Origin: Sphingomonadales bacterium
GTDB taxonomy: Bacteria > Pseudomonadota > Alphaproteobacteria > Sphingomonadales > Sphingomonadaceae
DNA: 64,000 nucleotides
Assembly (NCBI GenBank): GCA_027483465.1
Contig: JAIXUQ010000087.1
Span: 26,320 to 90,319 of the forward strand
Direction: 5' to 3'
Positions within the stretch are counted from its first letter, which is position 1; every line of letters starts with the position of its first letter. The notes beneath the pieces are model-generated. The model searched no databases. It was not told where the DNA came from and worked only from the letters and a program-made list of their open reading frames with translations. Of the stretch, positions 16,037 to 37,899 are shown piece by piece. The translations under genes were made by a program, and so were the position numbers.

Positions 16037-17680
16037 ATGAAAAATCTGCTGTTCGCGCTGGCGCTCGGCACGTCGGCGCCGCTGCTGGCCGATACGCTCT
16101 ACACCAATGCCAATGGCTACACGCTGGATGGCGGCGGCGTGCTGCACCGCTTTGCCACGCTGGTGGTGGGTGATGACGGGCGGGTGAAGGCCACGCTGCC
16201 GGCCGGGGCGGCGCTGCCGGCGGGCACGCAGGTTGATCTGGCCGGCGCCACGCTGTGGCCGGGGCTGATCGATGCCCATGGCCATGTGATGGGCCTGGGC
16301 GAGGAGCGGTTGCAGATTGATCTGCGCGACACCGCATCGATCGCGGCGGCGCAGGCGCGCATCCGCGCCGGCCTGCCGGCCAGCGGCTGGGTGCTGGGCC
16401 GCGGCTGGAACCAGGAACGCTGGCTGGAGGGCGGCAAGCCCATCGGCCGCTTCCCCACCGCCGCCGAGCTTGACGCCGTGACCGGCAGCCGCCCGGCCTG
16501 GTTCGAGCGGGTGGACGGCCACGCCGGCTGGGCCAACAGCGCGGCGCTGAAGGCCGCCGGCATCACCCGGGAGACGAAGGACCCGCCCGGCGGCCAGATC
16601 ATCCGCGATGCCGCCGGCAATCCCACCGGCGTGCTGGTCGACAATGCCATGGCGCTGGTGGCCCGGCAGGTGCCCGCCGACGATGCCGCCCGCCGCGATC
16701 TGGTGCTGGCCAAGGCATTGGAAACCATGGCCGAAGTCGGCCTGACCGGGGTGCATGACGCCGGCATGGACAAGGACACGTGGGACCGGTACGTGCGCTT
16801 TGCGTCCAGCGGCCGGCTGACGGCGCGCATCTATGCCATGGCCTTTGGCCCGGCCAACCGCGCCGCCATCGCGCCCAACGGCCCCATTGATTGGGGCTGG
16901 AATGATCTGATCGCGATGCGGGCGATGAAGCTGGTTTCGGATGGCGCGCTGGGCAGCCGGGGTGCCTATCTGCTGAAACCCTATGCCGACATGCCGAACA
17001 CGCGCGGGCTGGAGATCATTCCGGCCGATGAGCTGAAGCGGTTGGTCACCACCGCCTCGGCCCAGGGCTTCCAGGTCAATGTCCACGCCATCGGCGATGC
17101 CGCCAACCGCGCCACCATGGCGGCCTTTGCCGCGGTGCCGCCGGCCGAGCGCACGGCGCGCCGCCACCGCAACGAACATGCCCAGATCCTCGACATGGGC
17201 GATCTCCACAGCTTTGCCGATCTGGCCGTGGTCGCCTCCATGCAGCCCACCCACGCCACCTCTGACAAGGGGATGGCCGAGGCGCGGCTGGGCGAGGCGC
17301 GGCTGGGCGGCGCCTATGCCTGGGCGGCGCTGAAGAAGAGCGGCGCGCAGCTGGCGCTGGGCAGCGATTTCCCGGTGGAGCCGCCGGAGCCGCTGTTCGG
17401 CCTGCATGCCGCTGTCACCCGCCAATCCCGCGACGGGTTGCCGGCCGGCGGCTGGCGGCCGTGGGAGAAATTGAGCCTCACCGATGCGCTGGCCGGCTTC
17501 ACCCTGTGGGCGGCGCGCGCCGGCCATGCCGAAACCAAGGTGGGCACGCTGGAGCCGGGCAAATGGGCCGATTTCATCACGCTTGAGCGGGACCCGTTCG
17601 CCACGCCCGAAGGCCAGTTGTGGCAGATCAGAGTGTCGGGCACCTGGCTGGCCGGCAAGCGCGTCTACAGCCGCAAGTGA
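16037..17680 (+). CDS. exported amidohydrolase (YtcJ/amidohydrolase-3 type)
   Basis: A 547-residue metal-dependent hydrolase with a signal peptide (KNLLFALALGTSAPLLADT). ATG 16037 is preceded by GGGGGAT and is preferred over the upstream in-frame codon. The metal motif WPGLIDAHGHVMG is at the start of the barrel, followed by NVHAIGDAANR, HRNEHAQILD and LGSDFPVEPPEPL. The C-terminal FITLERDPF belongs to the small beta domain. The order and spacing match the YtcJ-like group, which hydrolyses amide or related bonds; the natural substrate is unknown. The last codons are copied in a tandem duplication just downstream. Confidence 0.88.
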   Translation: MKNLLFALALGTSAPLLADTLYTNANGYTLDGGGVLHRFATLVVGDDGRVKATLPAGAALPAGTQVDLAGATLWPGLIDAHGHVMGLGEERLQIDLRDTASIAAAQARIRAGLPASGWVLGRGWNQERWLEGGKPIGRFPTAAELDAVTGSRPAWFERVDGHAGWANSAALKAAGITRETKDPPGGQIIRDAAGNPTGVLVDNAMALVARQVPADDAARRDLVLAKALETMAEVGLTGVHDAGMDKDTWDRYVRFASSGRLTARIYAMAFGPANRAAIAPNGPIDWGWNDLIAMRAMKLVSDGALGSRGAYLLKPYADMPNTRGLEIIPADELKRLVTTASAQGFQVNVHAIGDAANRATMAAFAAVPPAERTARRHRNEHAQILDMGDLHSFADLAVVASMQPTHATSDKGMAEARLGEARLGGAYAWAALKKSGAQLALGSDFPVEPPEPLFGLHAAVTRQSRDGLPAGGWRPWEKLSLTDALAGFTLWAARAGHAETKVGTLEPGKWADFITLERDPFATPEGQLWQIRVSGTWLAGKRVYSRK

Positions 17681-17744
17681 TTCAGCCGCCCCACACCGGC
17701 AGGCGCGTCTACAACCGCAAGTGATTCAGCCGCCCCACACCGGC
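17659..17744. repeat. 42-bp tandem duplication covering two convergent gene ends
   Basis: Copies at 17659-17700 and 17703-17744 are identical except for one base (ACAGCCG versus ACAACCG). Each carries the last codons and stop of the amidohydrolase gene and the last codons of the convergent prolyl-hydroxylase gene. Only the left copy ends the amidohydrolase and only the right copy ends the hydroxylase. Confidence 0.9.
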
Positions 17745-18346
17745 GGGTGATGGCGCGGGGCATCGCGGAACCAGGCGGTGATCACGTATTTGGTGCCGGC
17801 CCTGACCGGCAGGCCGGCGTGCAGGGTGAAGGCATTGACCCCGCCATCGGCGGTGCGGTTGTTCCAGGCGATCAGCTTGCCGGTTTCGGGCTGCACCGTC
17901 TTGTCCAGATGCACGAAGCGGGTGGCGCCGCCGGCCTGCGGCTCGTTCAGATAGACCATCAGCGTCCAGGTGCGCTGGCCGCCGTCTTCGGTGTGCGGGA
18001 AATAATCCAGGCCGGTCGGCTCGAAATAATCGGTGTGCGCCTTGAACTGCTGGCCGGGGGCATAGCGCTGGCCCTGCAAGGCCTCGGCATGGGCCAGTGG
18101 CAGGCCGGCATAATCGGCCAGGCGCGTGTAGACGGCGCGCACCAGCGGATCATCACCGGGCAGATCGGCGGTCTCGCTGGTGCGGAAGGCGGCATCGGCG
18201 CCATAGGCATCGGTGATGGTGGAGGGGCGGCGCAACCGGTCGATCAGCGCGATGATGCCGGCGCATTCGGCGGCCGAGAGGAACTTCTTGCGGATGCACA
18301 TCTCCACGCGCTTGTCGGGCACGCGCTGGGCACCGGGAAAATTCAT
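17726..18346 (-). CDS. 2-oxoglutarate/Fe(II) oxygenase (prolyl 4-hydroxylase-like)
   Basis: A 206-residue oxygenase. ATG 18346 overlaps the prepilin peptidase stop (ATGA) and follows GGGAG. The iron facial triad is AHTDYF (His and Asp) and the distal histidine in FTLHAGLPVRAGTKYVI, with Lys for 2-oxoglutarate binding close behind. The LMVYLNEPQAGGATRFVHLD stretch is typical of the prolyl-4-hydroxylase alpha-subunit fold. Substrates in bacteria are usually protein prolines but are unknown here. Its 3' end lies in a tandem duplication. Confidence 0.87.
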   Translation of the reverse strand: MNFPGAQRVPDKRVEMCIRKKFLSAAECAGIIALIDRLRRPSTITDAYGADAAFRTSETADLPGDDPLVRAVYTRLADYAGLPLAHAEALQGQRYAPGQQFKAHTDYFEPTGLDYFPHTEDGGQRTWTLMVYLNEPQAGGATRFVHLDKTVQPETGKLIAWNNRTADGGVNAFTLHAGLPVRAGTKYVITAWFRDAPRHHPPVWGG

Positions 18347-19089
18347 CGCAGCCGCTCCCCCCAATCCGGGCCGAGCATGAGCAGGATCAACGCCATGCCG
18401 GCCAGCAGCGCCCCCAGTGGCAGGGCGGTGGTGGCGGTTATCGCCCGGCCGCGCGCCCGGTCAAGCCCGGCCAGGCCGAGGCCGAGCAGCGCCGCGCCGG
18501 TCAGAATGAAGGGCAGCGGTATCCAGCCCAGCAGCGCGCCGATGCCGGCCATCAGCTTGGGATCGCCGCCGCCCATGCCCTCGCGCCCGGTGCGCCAGCG
18601 ATAGCCTGCCCGCAGCGCCGCCAGCGTGCCAAAGCCCAACAGGGCGGCCAGCGCCCGGTCGGCCAGCGGCGCAAAACCGATCACCTCGCCCAGCGCCAGC
18701 CCGGCCGGGATCAGCGGCAGGGTGAGGGCATCGGGCAGCCACTGGTGCTCGGCATCCAGCACGATCAGCGCCAGCAGCCACCAGCCGGCGATGGCGGCAG
18801 CGAGGCCGGGCAGCAGCGGGTAACGCCACAGCAGCACGGCCCCCACCGCCGCCCCGGCCAGTTCGATGGCCGGGTGCCGCCGGTCAATCGCCGCGCCGCA
18901 ATGGCGGCAGCGCCCGCGCAGCACGAGGAAGGACAGGACCGGCACCAGTTCCAGCGCGCGCAACTGCACCCCGCAGGCATCGCAGCGCGACCGGCCGGTG
19001 ATCGCCTGCCCCGCCGGCCAGCGCCCGGTGAGCACGGCGAGAAAACTGCCGATGATGAGGCCGAGCAGGGCGCCGAGGGCGGCCGTCAT
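18343..19089 (-). CDS. gspO: prepilin peptidase / N-methyltransferase (type II secretion GspO)
   Basis: A 248-residue polytopic membrane enzyme that cuts the leader of type IV pilin-like proteins and N-methylates the new first residue. The cytoplasmic zinc cysteines are CDACG and CRHCG (about residues 36-65). The two catalytic aspartates lie in LIVLDAEHQWLPDALTLP and MGGGDPKLMAGIGALLGW. The track ORF is extended by a translated repeat; ATG 19089 is the true start, and its strong Shine-Dalgarno (GGGGGAGGATC) is itself part of the palindromic repeat. It is the only such peptidase in the window and so the likely partner of the GspG-K pseudopilins 17 kb away. Confidence 0.92.
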   Translation of the reverse strand: MTAALGALLGLIIGSFLAVLTGRWPAGQAITGRSRCDACGVQLRALELVPVLSFLVLRGRCRHCGAAIDRRHPAIELAGAAVGAVLLWRYPLLPGLAAAIAGWWLLALIVLDAEHQWLPDALTLPLIPAGLALGEVIGFAPLADRALAALLGFGTLAALRAGYRWRTGREGMGGGDPKLMAGIGALLGWIPLPFILTGAALLGLGLAGLDRARGRAITATTALPLGALLAGMALILLMLGPDWGERLR

Positions 19090-19545
19090 GATCCTCCCCC
19101 TTGGGGGTGGCCCTGCCTTGATGATCCTCCCCCGCTGGGGGAGGTGCCCGCAGGGCGGAGGGGGCGGCGGGTTTGGAGATGTGCGCCTGGCCCGCCCCCT
19201 CCGCCTCCCTTCGGTCGGCACCTCCCCCCGAGGGGGAGGATCTGGGGTGGTGCGGCGATCATGATCCTCGCCCACTGGGGAAGAAGCTGAGGTGGTGCGC
19301 GCCAAGTCCCGATCCTCCCCCTCTGGGGGAGGTGCCCGCAGGGCGGAGGGGACGGCTCGCGTGGAGATGTGCGCCCGGCCCGCCCCCTCCGCCTCCCTTC
19401 GGTCGGCACCTCCCCCAAAGGGGGAGGATCTGGAGTGGTGTGGCGATCATGATCCTCGCCCACTGGGGCGGCCCTGCCTCGATGATCCTCCCCCTGCGGG
19501 GGAGGTGCCCGCAGGGCGGAGGGGGCGGCGGCTTGGGTGCATGTG
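19090..19545. repeat. cluster of palindromic intergenic repeats in composite array
   Basis: This 474-bp gap between the prepilin peptidase and alcohol dehydrogenase genes holds at least five units of one repeat family, each built on GATCCTCCCCC-n-GGGGGAGGTGCC followed by a GC-rich tail. Forward units with tail CGCAGGGCGGAGGGGGC lie at about 19122-19171, 19309-19353 and 19481-19531. Inverted units with tail CCTCCGCCTCCCTTCGGTC lie at about 19191-19242 and 19379-19432. A partial copy abuts the peptidase start. The forward/inverted pair plus its spacer (including CGATCATGATCCTCGCCCAC) is itself duplicated with a period of about 187 bp. There is no gene here. Confidence 0.88.
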
Positions 19546-19563
19546 GGGCCGCCTGGCCGCCGG

Positions 19564-20679
19564 TCACGGGATCAGGATCTGCCGCACGGCCTGGCCGCCG
19601 GCCAGTTCGTCGAGCGCGTGGTTGATATCAGCCAGCGGCAGCACGCTGGTCAGCAGGCGTTCCACCGGCAGGCGGCCGGCGCGCCACAGGGCGATGTAGC
19701 GCGGGATGTCGCGCGCCGGCACCGCCGAACCCATATAGCTGCCGATCAGCGTCTTGGCTTCGGCCACCAGGCTGACGGCCGGGATGGTGAAGGGATCGGC
19801 CGGGTTGGGCAGGCCGACGGTGACGATGCGGCCGCCGCGCGCCGTGGTGCGATAGGCCTCGGCCAGCACGCTGCCCTTGCCCACGCTCTCGATCGCGACG
19901 CGCGGGGCCCCGTGTTCGGCAAAGGCGGCGGCCACCTCTGCGGGCGCCACGGCGGCCCGGGCGCCCAGTTCGAGCGCGAGCGCGCGCTTTTCCGGCACCG
20001 GATCAATGGCGATCACCGGCTCCGCCCCGGCCGCCACCGCGCCCAGCAGTGCAGCCAGGCCAACGCCGCCCAGCCCCCAAATCGCCACGCTTTCGCCGGG
20101 GCGCACCACGGCGGAATTGAACACCGCGCCCACCCCGGTGAGCACGGCACAGCCGAACAGCGCGGCGATTTCGGCCGGAATGTCATCATCGATGCGCACA
20201 CAGCTGCGTTCATCGATCACGGCATGGCTGGCAAAGGCCGACAGGCCCAGATGATGATGCACCTTGTGGCCGCAATCACTCAGCCGGAAGCCGCCGCCCA
20301 AGAGTTCGCCCTTGCCGTTGGCGGCCGCGCCGTTGCTGCACAGCCAGGGCTCGCCGCGGTGGCAGGCCTCGCAATGGCCGCAGGCCGGCAGAAAGGCCAT
20401 CACCACGCGCGCGCCCGGTGCCAGCCGCGCGCCCGGCCCGGCGGCCAGCACGCGCGCCACCGCCTCGTGGCCCAGCGCCATCGGCAGCGGGCGCGGCCGA
20501 TCGGCGTTCACCACCGAAAGATCGCTGTGGCACAGGCCGGCCGCCTCGATCTGCACCAGGAGTTCGCCGGGGCCGGGCGGGGCCAGATCCAGCCGCTTCA
20601 GCGTGAGCGGCCGGCTGCTGGCATAAGGTTGGGCGGCGCCCATGGCATCCAGCACGGCGGCGGTGGTGGTGGTGATCAT
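19564..20679 (-). CDS. zinc-dependent alcohol dehydrogenase
   Basis: A 371-residue medium-chain dehydrogenase, class III-like. Catalytic zinc ligands are in GLCHSDL and LGHEAVARV, the structural zinc lobe is CGHCEACHRGEPWLC, and the NAD fold is WGLGGVGLAALLG. The C-terminal half has SYMGSAVPARDIPRYIALW, as in enzymes of the formaldehyde/S-hydroxymethylglutathione and aryl-alcohol group. The start ATG overlaps the racemase stop (ATGA), so it is coupled to the D-amino-acid genes. The substrate is not determined by sequence. Confidence 0.9.
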   Translation of the reverse strand: MITTTTAAVLDAMGAAQPYASSRPLTLKRLDLAPPGPGELLVQIEAAGLCHSDLSVVNADRPRPLPMALGHEAVARVLAAGPGARLAPGARVVMAFLPACGHCEACHRGEPWLCSNGAAANGKGELLGGGFRLSDCGHKVHHHLGLSAFASHAVIDERSCVRIDDDIPAEIAALFGCAVLTGVGAVFNSAVVRPGESVAIWGLGGVGLAALLGAVAAGAEPVIAIDPVPEKRALALELGARAAVAPAEVAAAFAEHGAPRVAIESVGKGSVLAEAYRTTARGGRIVTVGLPNPADPFTIPAVSLVAEAKTLIGSYMGSAVPARDIPRYIALWRAGRLPVERLLTSVLPLADINHALDELAGGQAVRQILIP

Positions 20680-21413
20680 GGCGCCACCCTATCGGGCAAA
20701 CGCGCCGCCGCCAATGTGGCGCGGGCCAGCGCGGCGGTGGAATTGATCAGCGGCACCGCCACGTCATCCGGCCCCAGCGCCAGCGGCACTTCTGTGCAGG
20801 CGGCGATGATCACGCCGGCCCCGGCCGCCACCAGCCGCGCCGCCTCGGCCGCCAGCGCGGCGCGCACCTGTGGCCCGGCATCGCCGGCCTTGATGGCGTT
20901 CACGGCCGGCTGCACCACCGCCAGATCGCCGGCCAGCACCGGCACCGGGCTGGCGCGGCCATAAAGATCCAGCGCCAGCGTGGCCCCCACTGCCAGCACG
21001 CCGATGCGCTGCGGGCCGTGGGCCAGCGCCTCGGCCAGGGCGGCATCGATCATCGAAACAAAGGGCGCCGCCGTGATCGCAGCGGCCCAGCCATGGGCGG
21101 CGTTGCACGGCATCGCCAGCACCTCGGCCCCCAGGGCCACCAGCCCCTGCGCCATCGCCGCCAGCGCCGGGCCGGGGGCGGGGCCGCCGCCTAGGGCCGC
21201 GGCGTTGCGATCGGGCACATGGGGGTTGCTGTCCACCAGCACGCGCGGGTGATCCGTGTCACGCGCGGCGGCGGCGCCGGCCACCAGCAGGGCCATGAAA
21301 TCGGCGGTGGCGGCCGGCCCCATGCCGCCGATCACGCCGATGGTGCGCCAGCCGGGCACGATCACGGTGCGCCAGCCGGGCACGATCACGGCGCGCGGGC
21401 GGTCGCGCGCCAT
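20676..21413 (-). CDS. aspartate/glutamate racemase family protein
   Basis: A 245-residue PLP-independent racemase. The two catalytic cysteines are in LAMPCNAAHGW and IIAACTEVPLAL, and the N-terminal IGVIGGMGPAATADF is the family start. It overlaps dcyD upstream and the dehydrogenase downstream by ATGA each. The N-terminus contains an exact in-frame tandem repeat VIVPGWRT-VIVPGWRT upstream of the fold, so the first 24 residues may be dispensable. Racemase and D-cysteine desulfhydrase together suggest D-amino-acid metabolism. Confidence 0.87.
   Translation of the reverse strand: MARDRPRAVIVPGWRTVIVPGWRTIGVIGGMGPAATADFMALLVAGAAAARDTDHPRVLVDSNPHVPDRNAAALGGGPAPGPALAAMAQGLVALGAEVLAMPCNAAHGWAAAITAAPFVSMIDAALAEALAHGPQRIGVLAVGATLALDLYGRASPVPVLAGDLAVVQPAVNAIKAGDAGPQVRAALAAEAARLVAAGAGVIIAACTEVPLALGPDDVAVPLINSTAALARATLAAARLPDRVAP
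21342..21389. repeat. two perfect 24-bp tandem units in the racemase N-terminus
   Basis: GGTGCGCCAGCCGGGCACGA plus TCAC is repeated twice without mismatch (21342-21365 and 21366-21389). It adds eight residues (VIVPGWRT) and keeps the frame. Confidence 0.92.
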
Positions 21414-22414
21414 CAGTTGAAGGCGGGATCGCGCAGCACGGGGGCAAAGGCCGGCAGGCTGGGGGCGCCACCGGTGTGCAGGAACAGCACCCGCTGCCCG
21501 GCAAAATCGCCGGCGCGGGCCAGCGCGATCAGCCCGGCCATCGCCTTGCCGCTGTAAACCGGATCAAGCAGGATGCCCTCGCTGCGGGCCAGCAGCCGCA
21601 CCGCCGCCACCATGTCGCGGGTGGGCAGTGAATAGCCGGGGCCAACCCAATCGGCCAGCGCCACGATGTCGGCCGCCGTGGGGCGCGGCGTGCCGAGCAG
21701 ATCGGCGGTGGCCTCGGCCAGCTTCAGCACATTGGCTTCCTGCTCGGCCCGCGGGCGGCGCACGTTGATGCCGGTCACGGGAATGCCGGCGTTCAGCGCC
21801 ACCAGCCCGGCCACCAGCCCGGCATGGGTGCCGGCGCTGCCCGAGGCGACCACGATCCGGTCAAACGCCACGCCGGCATCGAACGCCTGGGCCATGATTT
21901 CCTGGGCGCAGGCGGCATAGCCCAGCGCGCCCAGCGGGTTGGAGCCGCCGCCGACGATCACATAGGGCCGCCCGCCCGCCGCCGTCACCGCCGCCGCCTC
22001 GGCCGCCAGTTCGGCGTTCAGATCACTGCCGGCCTTCACCATGCGGATGGCCGCAGCGCCCATCAGATCAAACAGGAGATTATTGCCCAGCGCATCGGGG
22101 CTGTAGCTGCCGGGCACCCGCTCCTCGATCACCAGCCGGCAGGCCAGCCCCTCCCTGGCGGCGGCGGCGAGCGTGAGGCGGCAATGGTTGGATTGCGGCG
22201 CGCCCACGGTGATCAGCGTGTCGGCCCCTTGCGCCAGCGCATCGGCAACCAGGAATTCCAGCTTGCGGGTCTTGTTGCCGCCGCCGGCCAGGCCCAGCAG
22301 ATCATCGCGCTTGATCCACAGATCAGCGCCCAGCGCGGCCGAAAGGCGCGGCATCGCTTCCAGCGGGGTGGCGCCAGCCGTGTAGCGGCGGCGGGCAAAA
22401 CGGGCGAGATTCAC
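21413..22414 (-). CDS. dcyD: D-cysteine desulfhydrase / ACC deaminase family PLP enzyme
   Basis: A 333-residue PLP enzyme that breaks D-cysteine into pyruvate, H2S and ammonia (or deaminates 1-aminocyclopropane-1-carboxylate in relatives). The PLP lysine lies in GGGNKTRKLEFLVADAL, the serine-rich loop is APQSNHCRLT and the C-terminal DPVYSGKAMAGLI is typical. The GTG at 22414 follows GGGGGA at good spacing and is preferred to the upstream frame. It begins 13 bp after the autotransporter stop and overlaps the racemase. ACC deaminase and D-cysteine desulfhydrase cannot be separated by eye; the neighbouring racemase favours D-amino-acid use. Confidence 0.85.
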   Translation of the reverse strand: MNLARFARRRYTAGATPLEAMPRLSAALGADLWIKRDDLLGLAGGGNKTRKLEFLVADALAQGADTLITVGAPQSNHCRLTLAAAAREGLACRLVIEERVPGSYSPDALGNNLLFDLMGAAAIRMVKAGSDLNAELAAEAAAVTAAGGRPYVIVGGGSNPLGALGYAACAQEIMAQAFDAGVAFDRIVVASGSAGTHAGLVAGLVALNAGIPVTGINVRRPRAEQEANVLKLAEATADLLGTPRPTAADIVALADWVGPGYSLPTRDMVAAVRLLARSEGILLDPVYSGKAMAGLIALARAGDFAGQRVLFLHTGGAPSLPAFAPVLRDPAFN

Positions 22415-22427
22415 GGATTTTCCCCCA

Positions 22428-25400
22428 TCACATCGCAAAGCGCAGGGACGCCATCACCGATTGCGCGGTGAAGCTGCTGGCCTGTCGCCGGTCATAGCCG
22501 AGCACGGCGACAAAGCCGCTGCCGGCATAGGCGAACTGGCCGCCAACCTGCAGTTCGCTGGGCCGGATCGCATCGGCGCCCAGCACGAAATCGCTGCCGC
22601 CGCCGGCAAAGCGGCCGCTGAGCGCCAGCGCCGAGGTGCCCAGCTGGCTGACATAGCCGCCGCGCAGGCCCAGCCGCCAGGCGCCATCGCCCGATGGCAC
22701 GACATAATCGGCCGAAAGCGCCGCGGTGTTGGTGGTGATCGTCTGGCTCGACCGGTCCATCGTCACCGCCAGCGAACCCGCGCCGGTTTCGGTGAAGCCG
22801 TTCTGCCGCACCTTCAGCCAGCTGATGCTGTTCGATGGCATGATCGCCAGCCGTCCGGCCTTGATGGCATAGCCCAGCGTGCCGCTGGCGCCCTGGCTGG
22901 TGCCGCGCCAGCCGGCGGTGATCACCCCGCTCTGGGTGCCGAAGGTGAATTCCCGGCGCGAGCTGTAGCTGGTGAAGCCATATTGGCCTCCGATCGCCAC
23001 GAACAGCCCGCCAAACCGCTTGGCGGCATAAAGATCAACCTGGTTGGCGGTGAGCAGCAGCGGCTTGCCGGCCACCCCGCCATAGCGCACGTCCGACCAG
23101 CCGATGCTGTAGGCCAGCCCCACCGCGTCCAGCCCCAGGATCGGCTTGTCCACCCCCACCGAAAGGCCCAGCATGTTGCCGGTGAAGCCCGGCGTGTTGG
23201 CGCCATCTTTCTGGCTGATGAAATTGCCGGTTTCCTGCACCCACAGCGCCAGGCCGTTCAGATTGCCCAGTTCATCGCGCGAACCGCCCAGCCGCACCGC
23301 CGTCAGCCGCTGCGCCACGGCGCCCATGCCGGCATCGGCCATGCTGGCGGCCATGCGCAGCGGCGCGGCGCTGAAGGTGGCCGGGGCCAGCACGCGATAG
23401 GCGGCCAGCACATCGGCCTGGGTGGCCAGATTGCCGATCGCCGGCCCCAGCGTGGCATCGGCGGCGAGCGCCGCCAGCGACTGGTTGAAGAAGCCGGCCT
23501 GCCCCGGCGTCAGCCCCACCTCGGCCGCCGATTTGCGGTTGAGCGTGACGGTGACGGCGTTGGCGCTCACCGTGGCGCTGCCCAGCGTGTAGAGGAAAGG
23601 CACGGTGGCCGTATCAACCAGCGTTGACGGGCTGGCCGCCGTGATGCCTCCGGCGGCGGAGACGAGGGTGAGCGTCTGGCTGTTGGTGATCGAGGAGACG
23701 GCGACGCGCAGCCGCGCCGTGTCGGCAAAGCTGGCCGCGCCGGTCACCGTCAGGCCCGGCTGGCCGGAGCGCACCGCCACGGTGAGCCGGCTGCTGCCGC
23801 TCATGGCCAGCGACGACAGCGTGGGCGCGGTGCCGGCCGAAAGATCAAGGCTGGTCGCGCCCGAGAGGGTGACGGCCAGTTGCCCGCCGCTGGTGACGGC
23901 GCCGCTGATCGTCGCGCCGCCGCTCATCGTCAGGCGGTTGGCGCCGCTGCCCAGCGCCAGCCGGCCGGTGAGGCTGCCGCCGCTGAGCGTCACGGTGGTG
24001 GCGCCGTTGCCGCCGATGATGTCGCCGGTGATGCTGCCGCTGTTGCTGATCGCCACGGCGGCGCTGCTGGCCGACAGGTCGATGGCGCGCGCCGGCTGGC
24101 CGGACACGCTCGCTGTCACCTTGATGGTGCCGCTGTTGCTGATGCTGGTGATGCTGCCGGCCAGATCGGCGATGCCAAAGGCGGCGTTGTTGCCGCTGGA
24201 TTGCACGGTGATGGCGCCGCTGTTGACCACGCTGCCCAGATTGGCCCCGGCCTGCACCAGCACGCCCACCGCCAGCCCGCCGCTGCCGGCCGCCGTGGTG
24301 CCCTGTGCCGGGGTGAGGGCGCTGGCGACATTGGTGCTGCCAGCGAGATTGACCGCGGCCGCGCTGGCCCCGGTGCGCAGTTCGATGCCGATGGCGGTCG
24401 CATCCACCGCGCCCACGGTCAGATCGGCGCCGCCGATGCTGGCGATGCTGCCGGCCAGGCTGGCCGCGCCGCTCACCACGATGCCGCTTTGCGCGGTGCC
24501 GCGGTTGCGCCCCTGCGCCGCGATGCGCCCGCGGTTGACCAGCGATTGCCCGTCGCTGTTGCTGCCCAGCAGGATCGGATCATTGCCGGCCGGCGCCACC
24601 AACACGGCCGGCGTGCCGGCAAAGCTGGAAACGCTGCCCAGCACGGTGGTGGTGGTGGCGCTGCTGGCCGGTTGCACCACGCCGGCGGCATCGACGAAAT
24701 ACCGATCGATGGCAAAGCCGCCGCTGATCCCGGCGCCGATGCGCACCCCGGCGACGCCGGCGACGGCATTGACGATATTGCCCACCGCATCAAAACCCTG
24801 ATCGCTGCCCACCACGATATTCGCACCGCTCAGCACCTGGCCGGTGATCGGGGCCAATATGGCCAGGCCGGTGTTGCCGGTGCCGGTGGCGGCCACCGTG
24901 CCATAGGTGGTGAGATTGCCGCTGAGCGGGGCGGCCACCACGATCGCCGCACTGCCGCTGCCGGCCACCGCCACGCCGCCCAGGCTGACATTGCCCACCA
25001 CGGGCGCGGCCAGCCGCACGCCGGTGGCATTGTCCCCGGTCACGCTGATGCGGGAAAGGGTGCTGCTGGTCAGGCTGCCGGTGAAGCTGCCGCTGCCGCT
25101 CAGCAGCAGGCCGGTGTTGCCGGTGGCGCCGGTGGCGGTGCCGGTCACCGAAATCGCGCTGTTGTTGATCAGGCTGCCGCCGCTGGCGCTGTCGATGCGC
25201 ACCGCCACCACGTTGGATGATCCGGCGCTGGTCAGCGTGCCGTTGTTGGTGATGCTGTTGGCGCTGTTGATGGTGGCGGCGGTGCCGTCGGTCACCGCCA
25301 CGCTGATGCCGCTGTTCACCGTCACATTGGCCGGCTGGCCGCTGCTGGCGGTGGCGGTGGCCACCGGCGTCGTCTGGTTGGCGCTGATCACCACCTGGGC

Positions 25401-25466
25401 GGCGGCCGGCGTTGCAAGCATGGTGCCAGCCAGCAGGAGGAGACGGGGGGCGGTGCGGTCGGTCAT
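22428..25466 (-). CDS. autotransporter (beta-helix passenger plus C-terminal barrel)
   Basis: A 1012-residue secreted protein. ATG 25466 opens a signal peptide (APRLLLLAGTMLATPAAAQ). The passenger, to about residue 700, is a long Gly/Ala/Ser/Thr/Asn-rich beta-helix with many near-repeats such as VNSGAITVQSSGNNAAFGI and ISNSGTITGD-like turns. The last about 270 residues form the autotransporter beta barrel (GLALWVQETGNFISQKDGA to the end MASLRFAM). The final residues FAM are not the canonical terminal Phe, since two residues follow it. It is upstream of and probably cotranscribed with dcyD. The passenger has no catalytic motif and may act as an adhesin. Confidence 0.88.
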   Translation of the reverse strand: MTDRTAPRLLLLAGTMLATPAAAQVVISANQTTPVATATASSGQPANVTVNSGISVAVTDGTAATINSANSITNNGTLTSAGSSNVVAVRIDSASGGSLINNSAISVTGTATGATGNTGLLLSGSGSFTGSLTSSTLSRISVTGDNATGVRLAAPVVGNVSLGGVAVAGSGSAAIVVAAPLSGNLTTYGTVAATGTGNTGLAILAPITGQVLSGANIVVGSDQGFDAVGNIVNAVAGVAGVRIGAGISGGFAIDRYFVDAAGVVQPASSATTTTVLGSVSSFAGTPAVLVAPAGNDPILLGSNSDGQSLVNRGRIAAQGRNRGTAQSGIVVSGAASLAGSIASIGGADLTVGAVDATAIGIELRTGASAAAVNLAGSTNVASALTPAQGTTAAGSGGLAVGVLVQAGANLGSVVNSGAITVQSSGNNAAFGIADLAGSITSISNSGTIKVTASVSGQPARAIDLSASSAAVAISNSGSITGDIIGGNGATTVTLSGGSLTGRLALGSGANRLTMSGGATISGAVTSGGQLAVTLSGATSLDLSAGTAPTLSSLAMSGSSRLTVAVRSGQPGLTVTGAASFADTARLRVAVSSITNSQTLTLVSAAGGITAASPSTLVDTATVPFLYTLGSATVSANAVTVTLNRKSAAEVGLTPGQAGFFNQSLAALAADATLGPAIGNLATQADVLAAYRVLAPATFSAAPLRMAASMADAGMGAVAQRLTAVRLGGSRDELGNLNGLALWVQETGNFISQKDGANTPGFTGNMLGLSVGVDKPILGLDAVGLAYSIGWSDVRYGGVAGKPLLLTANQVDLYAAKRFGGLFVAIGGQYGFTSYSSRREFTFGTQSGVITAGWRGTSQGASGTLGYAIKAGRLAIMPSNSISWLKVRQNGFTETGAGSLAVTMDRSSQTITTNTAALSADYVVPSGDGAWRLGLRGGYVSQLGTSALALSGRFAGGGSDFVLGADAIRPSELQVGGQFAYAGSGFVAVLGYDRRQASSFTAQSVMASLRFAM

Positions 25467-25569
25467 CCGGGCTATTTTCCGATGCGGTGGATCTGGTGGC
25501 CAGCACAGCCGGCGCAGCGCCTGAATAACGGCTGAACCGGCAAAATCCACCCGAAAGGCAGCGGCGCGA

Positions 25570-27042
25570 TCAGCCAAACCAGATTGGCGGCCGCCGCGCA
25601 GCCCAGGGCGCTGCCTGTTCCAGCTGAAAGGCCAGATCCATCAGGCGGGCATCATCACCGCGCCGGCCGGCAAAATGCAGGCCCAGCGGCAGGCCGTTGG
25701 TGGCCTGCATGATCGGCACGCTCATCGCCGGCGCCCCGGTGAGATTCTGCACCGGCGTGTAGGCGACGATGCGCATCATGTCGGCCATCACGTCGGCCGG
25801 CGGGCGGTGGTGGCCCAACAGGCCGATGGGCAGGGCATGGCGGGCCAGCACCGGGGTCAACAGCAGGTCATGCTCCTTGAAACTGGCGTTGTAGGCATCG
25901 CGATAGCCCGCCAGCCGCGCCATCAGCGCCGGCACATCGGCCACGGCGGCGCCCAGGCCGGCCAGATGGCGGGTCAACGGCTCCAGCGCGGCCACGCCCT
26001 CGGCGCCGAACGCCTTGTCCACGCCGGCCACCGCCTCGGCCGCGCCCAGCGCCCACAGCGCGGTGAAATCGCGCGCAAACGCCCCCGGATCAAAGGGCCA
26101 GGCCACATCGAACACGCTGTGGCCCATGGCGTTGAGCAGGGCGCGGGTGCGGGCCATGCCGCCCAGCACCTCGTCATCGGGGGCGGCATTGTCGGCCCCG
26201 TTGGTGATCACCCCGATGCGGAAGCGCTGGCCCACCGGGCCGTTCATCCGCGCCAGCGGCGGCAGGCCGGGCACATCCTGGCCCTGCAGGGAAACCAGCA
26301 CCAGCGCCGCATCGCGCACCGAACGCGACAGCACATGGTCAACCGCCAGCGCCGCCGGATCATCGCCCTTCAATTGCCCGGCCAGCCGGCCGCGGCTGGG
26401 CTTGAAGCCGAACAGGCCGCACAGATTGGCCGGGATGCGGATGGAGCCGCCGCCATCATTGGCATGGGCGATCGGCACCACGCCGGATGCCACCGCCGCC
26501 GCGCTGCCGCCCGACGAGCCGCCGGGCGAGAAATCCGGGTTCCACGGGTTGCGGGTGGGGCCGCCGGCCAGCGGCTCGGTGGTGCACATCAGGCCGAATT
26601 CCGGCGTCGTGGTCTTGCCCAGCGGGTTGATGTTCATCTGGGCATAGGCATCGACGAAGCGTTCATTGGCCTTGGCTGCCGGGGCGCGGGCAAAGGCGCG
26701 GCTGCCGTTGCGGGTGGGCCAGCCCCTGTAGTCGTTCAGATCCTTGATGAAGCTGGGGATGGACGGGGTGCGCGGCGCATCGGGCACGCGGGCCAGCGCC
26801 CCCGGCCGGTCGATCAGCACCGCAAAGTTCAGCTTCGCCTGCGCCGCCTCGGCCCGGTCGAGCGCGGCGGCCACGGCATCGCGGGCGCTCAACTCGCCGC
26901 TGCGGATGCGGCCGGCCAGCGCGATGGCATCATCGGCGGCAGCAGCGGCGGGGGCCTGGGCCGCACCGGGCGCGGCCAGCGCCGCCGCGCCGGCGGCTGC
27001 CCCGGCCAGCAACTGGCGACGGTCGAGAATCTGATCAGCCAT
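25570..27042 (-). CDS. Tat-exported amidase (amidase signature family)
   Basis: A 490-residue hydrolase. ATG 27042 follows GAGAGGT at good spacing. The N-terminus ILDRRQLLAGAAAGAAALAAPGA is a twin-arginine signal. The Ser-cisSer-Lys triad is visible as PSFIKDLND (lysine), FSPGGSSGGSAAAVASG (serines) and HANDGGGSIRIPANLCGLFG, the amidase signature. It is in the same orientation as the autotransporter, 103 bp upstream of it. The substrate amide is unknown. Confidence 0.9.
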   Translation of the reverse strand: MADQILDRRQLLAGAAAGAAALAAPGAAQAPAAAAADDAIALAGRIRSGELSARDAVAAALDRAEAAQAKLNFAVLIDRPGALARVPDAPRTPSIPSFIKDLNDYRGWPTRNGSRAFARAPAAKANERFVDAYAQMNINPLGKTTTPEFGLMCTTEPLAGGPTRNPWNPDFSPGGSSGGSAAAVASGVVPIAHANDGGGSIRIPANLCGLFGFKPSRGRLAGQLKGDDPAALAVDHVLSRSVRDAALVLVSLQGQDVPGLPPLARMNGPVGQRFRIGVITNGADNAAPDDEVLGGMARTRALLNAMGHSVFDVAWPFDPGAFARDFTALWALGAAEAVAGVDKAFGAEGVAALEPLTRHLAGLGAAVADVPALMARLAGYRDAYNASFKEHDLLLTPVLARHALPIGLLGHHRPPADVMADMMRIVAYTPVQNLTGAPAMSVPIMQATNGLPLGLHFAGRRGDDARLMDLAFQLEQAAPWAARRPPIWFG

Positions 27043-27126
27043 GGCGCACCTCTCCCATATGGTTTGCCGCCATGCTGGCACGCGCCGCGCCGCTGAAAAA
27101 GCCCCTTTGGGGCGGTGGCCACCAAA

Positions 27127-27231
27127 GCCCGCCACGCCGTCACCAGCGCCCGTCATGCCGTCACCGGCGCCCGCGATGCGGCCACCGGGGCCCAAACTGC
27201 CGCCACATATGGCCCGCCTGCCGTCACGCCG
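27127..27231. repeat. five degenerate 21-bp tandem units in an intergenic gap
   Basis: The gap between the amidase and TonB-receptor genes (27043-27468) contains five 21-bp units beginning GCCCGCCACGCCGTCACC at 27127. Units 1-3 match closely; units 4 and 5 are decayed. Read on the plus strand the frame gives ARHAVTS-ARHAVTG-ARDAATG-AQTAATY, which may be a pseudogene remnant or simply a repeat. The rest of the gap holds a terminator and no gene I trust. Confidence 0.7.
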
Positions 27232-27395
27232 CGGCGGCCCCGAATCCCACAAACCGCGCGGTCAGTGCCGCATCCCGGCCCGGATCATGCTGAAATTCCA
27301 GTCACTTGGCTCCCGCCCTGTCCTACAGGGGGCGATTTCGGCCATGATGGCCGGGTTCTTTGACAGGAAAATCCCGCACACAGGTCGGCCGGCCC

Positions 27396-27435
27396 AAAAA
27401 TGCGGCCGCCGGCCCGGTTGCCCCGGCCGGCGGCC
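27396..27435 (-). terminator. Rho-independent terminator of the TonB-receptor gene
   Basis: An 11-bp perfect stem (GGCCGCCGGCC and its complement at 27404-27414 and 27425-27435) is followed on the minus strand by GCATTTTTG. It lies 33 bp beyond the receptor stop. Confidence 0.8.
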
Positions 27436-27468
27436 CGAAATCGGCGCCGAAATCAGCGCGCCGTGCGA

Positions 27469-30147
27469 TCAGAATTTGGCGCTGAGGCTGGCCTGGAAGC
27501 TGCGGCCGATCACATAGCTGTTGGTGTCGATCCGGCTGGCGTTCAGGCGCTGGAATTCCTGGTAGCGCGTGTTGGTGAGGTTGCGCCCTTCCAGCTTGGC
27601 CTCGATCTCCCGGCCAAAGATCTTGAAGCCCTGGCGGATCACCACATCGAGGCGGATGCCCGGCTTCTCGATCAGGTCGGGCTGGCCCGACGGGCCGCGG
27701 AAGGCGACGCGGTTGCTGGCATAGTTCAACAGGATCGTCTGTTCCGACAGGCCGGCATCATCCTGGAAGCCGAATTGCAGGTTGGCGACATGGTCGGACT
27801 GGCCGGTCAAGGGCAGGCCGCTGCGGAAAATGTCGGTCGCCGGCACCACTTGGCCCGAAAGCGGGAAGCGGGTGGTGTCCCCGGCCTTCACGCGGATCTG
27901 GCTGTCGGTGAAGGTATAGTTGGCCGAAACGAAGAAGCGCCGGGTTTCGAACAGGCCGCCCCAGCCCGACAGGTCGAAATATTTCTGCGCCTCGATCTCC
28001 GCGCCATACAGCCGGGCGTTGGGGGCGTTGGCGAAGGTGTTCTGGAAGGTGCCGCCCTGCACGAAGGCGATGGCATCGATCGGATTGTCGATATCCTTGA
28101 AGAAGGCGCCGGCGGCCAACCGCTCGTCACGGCCGAAATACCATTCATAGCGGCCTTCGATGTTGATCAGTTCCGAATTGGTGAGGAACTGGTTGCCAAA
28201 GCTCAGACGGTCGCTGTCGGTGTCGAAATAGGGCTGCGGCGCCAGTTCGCGGAACTGCGGGCGGGCCACCGTCTTCGATGCCGAGAAGCGGAACTGCATG
28301 TCCTCGGCGAAATTCCAGGTGACGGTGGCGGCCGGCAGCCAATAATCCTGGTTGATGCTGGTGGGCTGGTTGAACGCCGAACCGGGGTTGGCGTTGAACA
28401 CATCCTGCGGCACCACCCGCTGGCGGCCCTGCTCATAACGCACGCCCAGCACCACCTGCACGCCGTCGGCCGGCTCCAGCTCGACCTGGCCATAGCCGGC
28501 GTTCACCGTCAGCTTCGCCTCATAGCGCGGCGCCACCGTGGAGATGGTGTTGAGGATGATGCCATAGGTGTAGACGTTGAAATCCGACAGCAGGAAATCC
28601 GGGCGCTGCTGGGTGACGGCGCCGGGCAGGGCGGCGTTGGACTGGTAGCGATAGTCGAACCGCTCCGAGACACGCTCGGCCCGGCTGAAGGCATAGCCGG
28701 CGGCCAGCCGGATCGGGAAGGGGCCGCCGCGGATCTTGTAGCCCAGATCGAGCCCGGCGCCATAGACATCCTCGTTCAGGCGGCTGAACGAGACCAGGCT
28801 GGACTGGCCGGGCGAGCGCAGATCGTTGACGAAGTCGTTGAACTGGCTGGAGAAGGCATAGTTGTTGAACCGCTCATAGGGCGCCAGGCGCTTGGAATTG
28901 GCATAGGTGCCGCGCACGTCGAGCGTCAGGTCGTTGAACTTGAATTCGCCCACCAGCTGGGTGTCGATCAGCTGGCGGCGGAAATGGGCGGTGGCGTTGC
29001 GCTGCAACAGCACGTCGCGGCCAACATTGATGTCGTCGATGCCGGACTGGATGCGGGCTTCCTTGATCGTGTCGTTCACATAGACATTGACCAGGCGGAC
29101 CTTGTGATCGCCAAATTCGGCGCCGAACGACATCAAGCCATTGAGAACGCTACGGAATTCTGTGGCGGCGAAATCAAAGTCCTGATCCGGCTGCAGGGCG
29201 GCATTGGCGCCGGTGCCGGTGGCCCCGCCCGACAATTGCTGCCTGCCGGCCTTGGTCTGCCAATCGTTGGAGAAGCCGGCGGCAAACACGAAGCCGAGCC
29301 TGGCATCGCCCACGTCAAAGGCGCGGCCGCCCGACATGTTGGCGCTCCAGTTCACCGGGATATTGTCGTTGCGGAAGATGACGTTGGTCGCCGCGTTGTT
29401 CAGATCGGCGGTGATGTCCTGCAGGGCGCGCAGGTTGAAATTCTGGCCGATGGCCAGCGCCCGGCCATTGGCCTGGCTGGCGCGCAGGCCCTGCGGCGTG
29501 TTGCGGGCGCCATCGTCATAGCCGGTCCAGTCCTTGCCGCCGCCGGCATAGACATAGCCCAACTGGCCGGTGGTGGCGCTGTTGGCGCCGATGCTGCCGC
29601 CCACGTTGAAGAACGGGTCCTTGGGCACGGCGCGGGTGGTGAGGTTGATCACCCCGCCGCCGAATTCGCCGGGGAAGTTCACCGAATAGCTTTTCTGCAC
29701 CACCGAGGAGGCCAGCACCGAGGTGGGGAAGAGATCGAGCGGCACCACGCGGCGCAGCGGATCGGGCGAGGGGATGGGCAAGCCATTGAGCAGGGCCAAG
29801 GAATAGCGTTCGCCCAGGCCGCGCACATAGACAAAGCGGCCGCCCACCACCGACAGGCCGGTGACCCGCTTGAGCGCGCCGGCGATGTCGCCTTCGCCGG
29901 TGCGGGCGATGTCGGCGGCCGAGAGCACCGAGACCACTTCGCGGCTGGCGCGGATGGTGTTGGGGATGCGGGTGCCGACGATGACGATCTCGTCGTTGCT
30001 GCCGCCGGGGGCGGACACGTCAACCGGCTCTTCCTCCTCGGCCGGCGGGGCCGCCGGCGGTGGGGCCGGCTGGGCCGCCAGCGCCGGCGCGGCAAGTCCG
30101 GCCAGCACGGTGGAGGAAAGGAGCAGACGCGCGAGAGTGGTGGTCAT
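27469..30147 (-). CDS. TonB-dependent outer-membrane receptor
   Basis: An 892-residue outer-membrane receptor that uses TonB energy for uptake of a large or scarce substrate. ATG 30147 follows GGGGAAG. A signal peptide ends near residue 24 (AAPALA), then comes an acidic stretch with the TonB box-like DEIVIVGTRIPN. A plug domain follows (SVLSAADIARTGEGDIAGAL, RFVYVRGLGERYSLALLNGL) and then a 22-strand-type barrel ending FQASLSAKF with terminal Phe. It begins 67 bp after the lipoprotein gene and is probably in one operon with it. Its substrate is unknown; similar receptor/lipoprotein pairs are frequent in sphingomonads and Caulobacter. Confidence 0.92.
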   Translation of the reverse strand: MTTTLARLLLSSTVLAGLAAPALAAQPAPPPAAPPAEEEEPVDVSAPGGSNDEIVIVGTRIPNTIRASREVVSVLSAADIARTGEGDIAGALKRVTGLSVVGGRFVYVRGLGERYSLALLNGLPIPSPDPLRRVVPLDLFPTSVLASSVVQKSYSVNFPGEFGGGVINLTTRAVPKDPFFNVGGSIGANSATTGQLGYVYAGGGKDWTGYDDGARNTPQGLRASQANGRALAIGQNFNLRALQDITADLNNAATNVIFRNDNIPVNWSANMSGGRAFDVGDARLGFVFAAGFSNDWQTKAGRQQLSGGATGTGANAALQPDQDFDFAATEFRSVLNGLMSFGAEFGDHKVRLVNVYVNDTIKEARIQSGIDDINVGRDVLLQRNATAHFRRQLIDTQLVGEFKFNDLTLDVRGTYANSKRLAPYERFNNYAFSSQFNDFVNDLRSPGQSSLVSFSRLNEDVYGAGLDLGYKIRGGPFPIRLAAGYAFSRAERVSERFDYRYQSNAALPGAVTQQRPDFLLSDFNVYTYGIILNTISTVAPRYEAKLTVNAGYGQVELEPADGVQVVLGVRYEQGRQRVVPQDVFNANPGSAFNQPTSINQDYWLPAATVTWNFAEDMQFRFSASKTVARPQFRELAPQPYFDTDSDRLSFGNQFLTNSELINIEGRYEWYFGRDERLAAGAFFKDIDNPIDAIAFVQGGTFQNTFANAPNARLYGAEIEAQKYFDLSGWGGLFETRRFFVSANYTFTDSQIRVKAGDTTRFPLSGQVVPATDIFRSGLPLTGQSDHVANLQFGFQDDAGLSEQTILLNYASNRVAFRGPSGQPDLIEKPGIRLDVVIRQGFKIFGREIEAKLEGRNLTNTRYQEFQRLNASRIDTNSYVIGRSFQASLSAKF

Positions 30148-37030: not shown

Positions 37031-37448
37031 GGACCGCTCCGGCGGCGCTGATCGTCACGCTGGCGCTGGCGCTGTCTTGCTGCACCGTCAGCCGCGCCGG
37101 GCTGGCCAGGCCGGTGGGATCGAAGATGATGGCGCCTTCCGGCTCGCTGATCAGGCGCTGGCCGGCTGGCAGGCGCACCGCCGGCTGGCCGGCCGCCTGC
37201 CAGCCCTGCGCAGCGGGCATCACCTGCACCGGCCGGCCCGACAGGATGGCGGCATCGCGCGCGGCATTCATGTGGGCGGCCAGCCGCTGGGCGCTGCGGC
37301 GCACATCATCGCCGTCGCCCGGCAGGCTGAGCACCACGGCCGCCGCGGCAATGCCGATGATGGCGATCACCACCACCAGCTCCACCAGCGTGAAGCCGGC
37401 CGCACGCCGCCTTGGCGGGGCGTCACAGGTTCCAGTTGCCGATGTCAT
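37020..37448 (-). CDS. gspH: minor pseudopilin GspH
   Basis: A 142-residue pseudopilin. ATG 37448 follows GGAG and overlaps the end of gspG by 26 bp; no better in-frame start lies between it and the cleavage site. The leader of 18 residues ends RRRAAG before FTLVELVVVIAIIGIAAAA. The head domain includes AAHMNAARDAAILSGRPVQV, typical of GspH. Confidence 0.86.
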   Translation of the reverse strand: MTSATGTCDAPPRRRAAGFTLVELVVVIAIIGIAAAAVVLSLPGDGDDVRRSAQRLAAHMNAARDAAILSGRPVQVMPAAQGWQAAGQPAVRLPAGQRLISEPEGAIIFDPTGLASPARLTVQQDSASASVTISAAGAVHAR

Positions 37449-37899
37449 CACCGTCGGCTCCGGGCCCGGTCTTGCCATCCGGCCCCATCGACCAGACATC
37501 GAACGGCCCGCTGCGGCCGGGGGCGGCATAGCGATAGGGATGACCCCAGGGATCATTGGGCAGCCGGCTGAGATAGCCGCCGGGGCGATAGCGTTCGGGC
37601 TGGGCCAGCCCGCCGGGCGGCGCCTTCAGCGCGTCCAGCCCTTCGGCGGTGCTGGGAAACGCCATCTGATCGGCGCGATAGGCGGTGAGCGCGGTTTCCA
37701 GCGCGGCGATATCGGCGCGGGCGCGGGTGGAGGCGGCCTTGTCCACATCGGGCAGCACGTTGATCACCACCACGGTGGTGAGGATGCCGATGATCACGAT
37801 CACCACCATCAGTTCGATGAGGGTGAAGCCGTTGATCCTCCCCCCCTGGGGGAGGTGCCCGCAGGGCGGAGGGGGCTGGGGGCGGCGGGCGGTCTTCAT
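37423..37899 (-). CDS. gspG: major pseudopilin GspG with repeat-derived leader
   Basis: A 158-residue major pseudopilin. ATG 37899 overlaps the gspF stop (ATGA), so this start is secure. Cleavage is predicted at G24/F25 in INGFTLIELMVVIVIIGILT. The leader is 24 residues, much longer than the usual 5-10, because residues 9-22 (PPPPCGHLPQGGRI) are encoded by a copy of the palindromic repeat family at 19.1-19.5 kb. The C-terminal part (LPNDPWGHPYRYAAPGRSGPFDVWSMGPDG) carries the conserved calcium-binding region of GspG. No alternative start exists between the repeat and the cleavage site. Confidence 0.93.
   Translation of the reverse strand: MKTARRPQPPPPCGHLPQGGRINGFTLIELMVVIVIIGILTTVVVINVLPDVDKAASTRARADIAALETALTAYRADQMAFPSTAEGLDALKAPPGGLAQPERYRPGGYLSRLPNDPWGHPYRYAAPGRSGPFDVWSMGPDGKTGPGADGDDIGNWNL
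37834..37876. repeat. palindromic repeat unit inside the gspG leader
   Basis: A forward unit of the family found at 19090-19545: GATCCTCC, then GGGGGAGGTGCCCGCAGGGC and GGAGGGGGC. It is in frame, has no stop codon, and lies between the gspG start codon and its prepilin cleavage site. Confidence 0.9.

Follow-up and report, generated by a model that had tools for sequence, protein, structure and literature searches.

A dispersed palindromic repeat at the start of gspO and inside the GspG prepilin leader of a freshwater Sandarakinorhabdus

Why should the gene of a prepilin peptidase and the gene of its main substrate carry the same palindromic repeat close to their starts? The question is raised by a window of 64,000 nucleotides (i.e. 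the whole stretch of DNA that was analysed) from the 3.58 Mb draft genome of a freshwater bacterium of the genus Sandarakinorhabdus (Sphingomonadales; coded G000), whose close relatives include Sandarakinorhabdus cyanobacteriorum TH057 (G009). A preliminary description of this window had offered two answers: a coincidence of an abundant repeat, or hairpins that link the expression of enzyme and substrate. Based on the comparisons below, we consider it probable that the repeats settle behind stop codons, that the copies in the leader and at gspO are tolerated, and that their meeting at enzyme and substrate is coincidence and not a shared RNA switch.

The repeat at gspO and in gspG

The features of the two genes and of the repeats associated with them are as follows.

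18343–19089, minus strand: gspO, prepilin peptidase (A24_N_bact and Peptidase_A24; Pfam PF06750 at residues 8–90, the full profile, and PF01478)
19087–19100, minus strand: gspO ribosome-binding site and start, GGGGGAGG-ATC-ATG, a repeat-unit edge (from the sequence)
19093–19110, no strand assigned: decayed repeat hairpin, CCACCCCCAAGGGGGAGG on the gspO strand, with the Shine-Dalgarno predicted to be partly released (sequence, hairpin search and predicted fold)
19123–19242, no strand assigned: repeat dimer of two inverted units, hairpins 19126–19144 and 19221–19239
19311–19430, no strand assigned: second repeat dimer, hairpins 19314–19332 and 19409–19427
19484–19528, plus strand: single repeat unit, hairpin 19487–19505
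19564–20679, minus strand: alcohol dehydrogenase gene (adh), upstream of gspO
37423–37899, minus strand: gspG, major pseudopilin (TIGR01710, 151 bits against a cut-off of 88.85), whose start overlaps the gspF stop (ATGA)
37834–37876, minus strand: in-frame repeat unit in the gspG prepilin leader, encoding PPPPCGHLPQGGRI (residues 9–22); the sole in-frame start lies upstream of it
37828–37830, minus strand: codon of the −1 Gly (residue 24), with cleavage predicted at NG^FTLIEL (from the sequence, what is known of the family, and TIGR02532, the N-terminal motif of prepilins)

The ribosome-binding site of gspO, GGGGGAGGATC-ATG (19100–19087), is the edge of a palindromic repeat with a CCTCCCCCNNNGGGGGAGG core. 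On the strand of the gene the sequence before the start reads CCACCCCCAAGGGGGAGGATC-ATG, in which the Shine-Dalgarno is an arm of the repeat hairpin; the earlier claim that it is a repeat-unit edge was confirmed by GGGGGAGG at 19093–19100, the border of a slightly decayed hairpin unit (19093–19110). The edge is located where the gspO Shine-Dalgarno must be, and would presumably be used as such. Beyond it stand five perfect CCTCCCCCNNNGGGGGAGG hairpins (at 19126, 19221, 19314, 19409 and 19487, reaching to 19505), in agreement with the four or more further units previously counted upstream. The two 120-bp dimers are a tandem copy with a spacing of 188 bp and are 93% alike, and the array as a whole occupies most of the gap up to adh at 19564. 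In repeat-free relatives the adh stop lies directly at the gspO start, mostly abutting or overlapping it. An extension of gspO upstream in frame to TTG at 19305 was rejected, as it is the ATG at 19089 that suits the A24 N-terminal domain; the open frame upstream of that ATG is explained as a by-product of the GC-rich repeats.

A repeat had also been placed in the leader of GspG, and a unit does lie there, although within the reading frame and not in an untranslated leader. The N-terminus reads MKTARRPQ-PPPPCGHLPQGGRI-NG^FTLIELMVV, with the repeat-encoded stretch before the predicted cleavage site, and the TIGR01710 match starts at residue 24, directly past that stretch. After the insertion GspG retains the hallmarks of a type IV prepilin (−1 Gly, F-T-L-I-E and a hydrophobic stretch; TIGR01710 and TIGR02532). 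There is no start codon between the repeat and the cleavage site, and the repeat must therefore be translated. The leader should then be removed by GspO at the predicted site; type IV pilin leader peptides are variable in length and are removed on the cytoplasmic side by prepilin peptidase (PMC10191384).

Abundance and placement of the repeat

Counted genome-wide, G000 contains 50 perfect hairpins at about 30 sites, compared with 0 for a control pattern read backwards, which shows that the repeat is not a product of chance. Counts of perfect hairpins across sister and same-genus genomes ranged from 0 to 113. Placement was assessed on 135 repeat clusters sampled from four sister species (G000, G009, G010 and G015), of which 65 lay in gaps of convergent genes, 60 in tandem gaps, 3 in divergent gaps and 7 at contig ends. 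Three of the sisters contributed 62, 25 and 18 clusters, nearly all beside unrelated genes. At the tandem sites the median distance was 17.5 nt to the upstream stop versus 84 nt to the downstream start, the stop being the nearer of the two in 45 of 60. The repeat is an ordinary dispersed palindrome biased to gene 3′ ends, and with about 30 sites in G000 and sister clusters beside unrelated genes, the first of the two earlier answers, coincidence of an abundant repeat, proved largely right. A role as intrinsic terminator was rejected, given that the hairpin has no following T-run. A covariance-model scan of the gspO and gspG repeat sites against Rfam gave no match up to E = 1, and nothing specific on this repeat in sphingomonads was found in the literature.

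The repeat resembles REP/REPIN sequences in being a short, GC-rich palindrome with tens of copies that lie mostly between genes, singly or as inverted pairs; it is likewise multi-copy, mostly extragenic and biased to 3′ ends and convergent gene pairs (65 convergent versus 3 divergent). It differs in that G000 has no RAYT (PF01797) and that no GTAG tag was seen. RAYT-type transposases (Y1_Tnp, PF01797) gave 0 matches in G000 and were found in 1 of 24 genus genomes; a RAYT as mobiliser of the repeat was rejected, being absent from G000 and having its single genus match on a contig that lacks the repeat. That sole Y1_Tnp (RAYT-like) gene (L347:372–701) lies on a 3.7-kb contig of G009, which is also the genome with the most repeats; the contig has no repeat copy.

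On our preferred explanation, the repeat would be a dispersed, non-coding REP/MITE-like palindrome that in this clade settles mainly just past stop codons. An insertion behind adh would have split gspO from the directly adjacent adh, leaving a purine-rich edge at the position of the gspO Shine-Dalgarno. The T2SS genes gspD to gspN overlap or abut, and in such a gap-free operon a repeat past a stop codon falls in the N-terminus of the next gene. Just past the gspF stop, an insertion would already be inside the overlapping gspG, in the segment that forms the leader, and the unit would have been kept there only for keeping the frame, having no stop and lying in a leader that GspO should cleave, so that the mature pseudopilin is unchanged. 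The coincidence of enzyme and substrate would then stem from where insertions are tolerated.

Insertions compared across sister species

The alternative of linked expression holds that gspO and gspG are translated in concert through their hairpins, by way of a shared RNA-binding factor or an mRNA structure that opens or closes both. In its favour, an identical unit in identical orientation does occur at both genes in G000 and G009. The repeat at the gspO start is present in G000, G009 (GGGGGAGGATTGAGATG) and G015 (GGGGGAGGATCATG) and absent from G010 and from distant relatives with readable starts; the in-frame gspG insertion is present, at the identical site, in G000 and G009 and absent from G010, G015, G005, G020 and G011. 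Conservation of the two insertions, which the preliminary description had made a test, was thus partial: gspO carries a copy in three of four sister species and gspG in two of four. G015 has the gspO insertion without that in gspG, and G010 has neither, yet both genomes have T2SS genes. In gspI, repeats follow the start in G009, G010 and G015, with none in G000. The species patterns at gspO, gspG and gspI differ, and the insertions in enzyme and substrate therefore do not travel together. A tree built from genes of the locus groups the four sisters as a clade (100/100) whose inner order is not settled; on the best tree of neighbouring genes two changes are needed for every one of the three insertions, which makes loss or parallel insertion likely at each.

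The local gene order differs as well. In G000 a block of 2OG-oxygenase, gspO, adh, racemase-like and desulfhydrase-like genes (17726–30147) has its orientation to the T2SS operon reversed with respect to G009, G010 and G015; only in G000 do an autotransporter-like gene (22428–25466) and an amidase-like gene (25570–27042) lie between the block and the T2SS side. The reversed block and the extra genes are a local rearrangement.

Folds predicted at the gspO start across relatives gave linked expression a measure of support, the Shine-Dalgarno being largely paired in G009 and G015 (unpaired probability 0.17 and 0.25, respectively) and paired to a lesser degree in G000, whose opposite arm has decayed. 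However, the hairpin contexts differ between the two genes: that of gspO covers the Shine-Dalgarno and start site, whereas that of gspG follows the start and is part of the coding sequence. The neighbours of about 28 further sites in G000 are unrelated. Furthermore, a ThiF/MoeB-like gene has a ribosome-binding site made of the gspO-type repeat in three species (G009, L232:1885; G010, L262:1607; G015, L276:2394), so that a repeat-made ribosome-binding site is not peculiar to T2SS. There is a nominal excess of sites at T2SS, with 2 repeat sites there in G000 against about 0.1 expected (based on about 13 T2SS junctions, roughly 3,400 genes as estimated from genome size, and 30 sites), and across the four species 8 clusters fall either within T2SS leaders or at the start of gspO. 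The enrichment that had been proposed as a check is real in number, yet post hoc and partly shared by descent among related species, and tolerance of leader insertions explains it at least as well as regulation does. Taken together, we regard co-ordination of gspO and gspG by their hairpins as very unlikely.

A separate possibility is that the repeat was kept at gspO, thiF and some gspI genes because a Shine-Dalgarno is provided by its edge, GGGGGAGG or GGCGGAGGGGG, a gain for each gene on its own and not co-regulation. The edge lies a few nucleotides before the start of gspO and of thiF/moeB, in three species each, and the G010 gspI repeat ends in GGAGGGGG with an in-frame ATG shortly after. 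In half of the gspO and thiF cases (G000 gspO, G009 thiF and G015 thiF) a hairpin arm is mutated and pairing of the Shine-Dalgarno weakened, although three of six is too few for a test. Such arrangements are rare, with two gene families among 60 tandem sites and starts usually about 84 nt off, and the distance from GGGGGAGG to ATG at gspO, 6 nt in G009, is a mere 3 nt (from GGAGG) in G000. A portable ribosome-binding site thus strikes us as an improbable reason for the retention of these copies, if a better one than co-ordination.

Pseudopilin leaders and other repeat families

Tolerance at the leader, as preferred here, can be followed in other pseudopilins. In-frame coding insertions of the repeat were recognised only in pseudopilin leaders, namely in gspG of G000 and G009 and in gspI of G009 (where a run of N makes the frame uncertain), G010 and G015; no others were recognised among the 135 clusters, a count from which some could be missing as the home-made gene caller is poor at N-termini. 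Sec signal peptides are likewise cleaved, and no repeats were seen in them, which counts against tolerance in cleaved leaders as the explanation. The run of 8 N (L158:4005–4020) lies within the repeat cluster of the G009 gspI leader and is perhaps an assembly gap caused by the repeats.

A scan of 185 prepilin motifs in the fetched loci found other palindromes in leader position. In all, the 5′ regions of gspG, gspI and gspJ hold palindromes of at least three genome-wide families, in seven Sandarakinorhabdus genomes and one Sphingopyxis. Family B (CCTCTCCCGCNNGCGGGAGAGG; 22, 33 and 18 copies in G004, G018 and G013) precedes the −1 Gly in GspI of G004 and of G018, and family C (GCCTCGACNNNGCTCGGCANGAGC; 30 matches in G013) does so in GspI of G013. 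GspJ of G015 has a variant of family C, GspI of Sphingopyxis indica has a related palindrome, and the remaining B and C copies in G018, G004 and G013 are nearly all intergenic. The G015 GspJ leader (L160:13420–13510) has a different palindrome with a 27-bp stem (CGCTCATGCCGAGCTTGTCGAGGCACG...) and with arms that are found again in one G009 locus (L229).

In G015 gspI there is no start codon past the repeat before the cleavage site, and here too the repeat must be translated. In G009 gspG a start codon lies at the very edge of the repeat, ahead of the cleavage site. A start codon between repeat and −1 Gly is present in G010, G018, G004, G013 and S. indica, whose repeats may be 5′-UTR or ribosome-binding site rather than coding.

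The several repeat families, along with the non-matching species patterns, point to tolerance of the leader site rather than to shared regulation. They could also be read as a target-site hotspot of a mobilising enzyme, since more than one species and more than one family show insertions at the same junction; the use of one site by different families, however, suggests selection on the outcome and not the target of one enzyme, shared ancestry accounts for part of the pattern, and a RAYT-type match was found in just 1 of 24 genus genomes. We hold a hotspot to be highly improbable. On balance, we lean slightly towards the view that sphingomonad T2SS pseudopilin leaders are a recurrent haven for in-frame, unrelated palindromes, whose peptide would be made and then removed by the prepilin peptidase; read from the sequences, translation through the repeat, cleavage of the leader and neutrality of the insert would all be expected.

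Several known systems are comparable. To the best of our knowledge, most known cases of in-frame palindromic repeats come from Rickettsia, and their effects on host proteins are largely unexplored. As with the Rickettsia palindromic elements (RPEs), a conserved protein has received a palindrome that is in frame and translated, the gspG insertion of G000 and G009 being in frame and stop-free with an empty site in G010, G015, G020, G005 and G011. RPEs have been reported in many unrelated metabolic genes (PMC10969869); here, in contrast, in-frame copies were recognised only in prepilin leaders expected to be cleaved, and the other copies of the repeat are intergenic. MITEs with in-frame fusions, such as the Coxiella QMITEs (PMC5896051), are similarly small non-autonomous repeats that extend proteins, but the empty sites here show no clear target-site duplication, and neither a terminal inverted repeat of a transposon nor, in a search directed at Y1_Tnp, a parent transposase was identified. 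Long-leader type IV pilins (T4bP, S. sanguinis; PMC10191384) share the class III signal peptide in which a long leader precedes the −1 Gly, whereas the extra length in G000 is a genomic repeat missing from close relatives, in which the GspG leader has 10–11 residues.

If the leader reading is true, selfish repeats can inhabit a gap-free operon with mature proteins unaltered, and the reason for their tolerance would be simple and testable, the insert lying in a segment that a dedicated peptidase should remove. The sister species would also provide a natural series for leader requirements, with leaders of 10 to 11, 24 and over 50 residues on the same pseudopilins. At gspO, a dispersed repeat could break a close gene junction and install its own ribosome-binding sequence. 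The start codons of repeat-bearing genes would be easily mis-annotated.

Lastly, a pattern of repeat edge followed by prepilin motif gave 4 matches in 301 genomes of the order, two of which were ordinary ribosome-binding sites (G056 and G069); the arrangement was found only in G000 and G009. Elsewhere in the window, a 44-bp tandem duplication (17652–17739; 95%) at the 3′ end of an amidohydrolase gene spans the stop codon and repeats the last codons.
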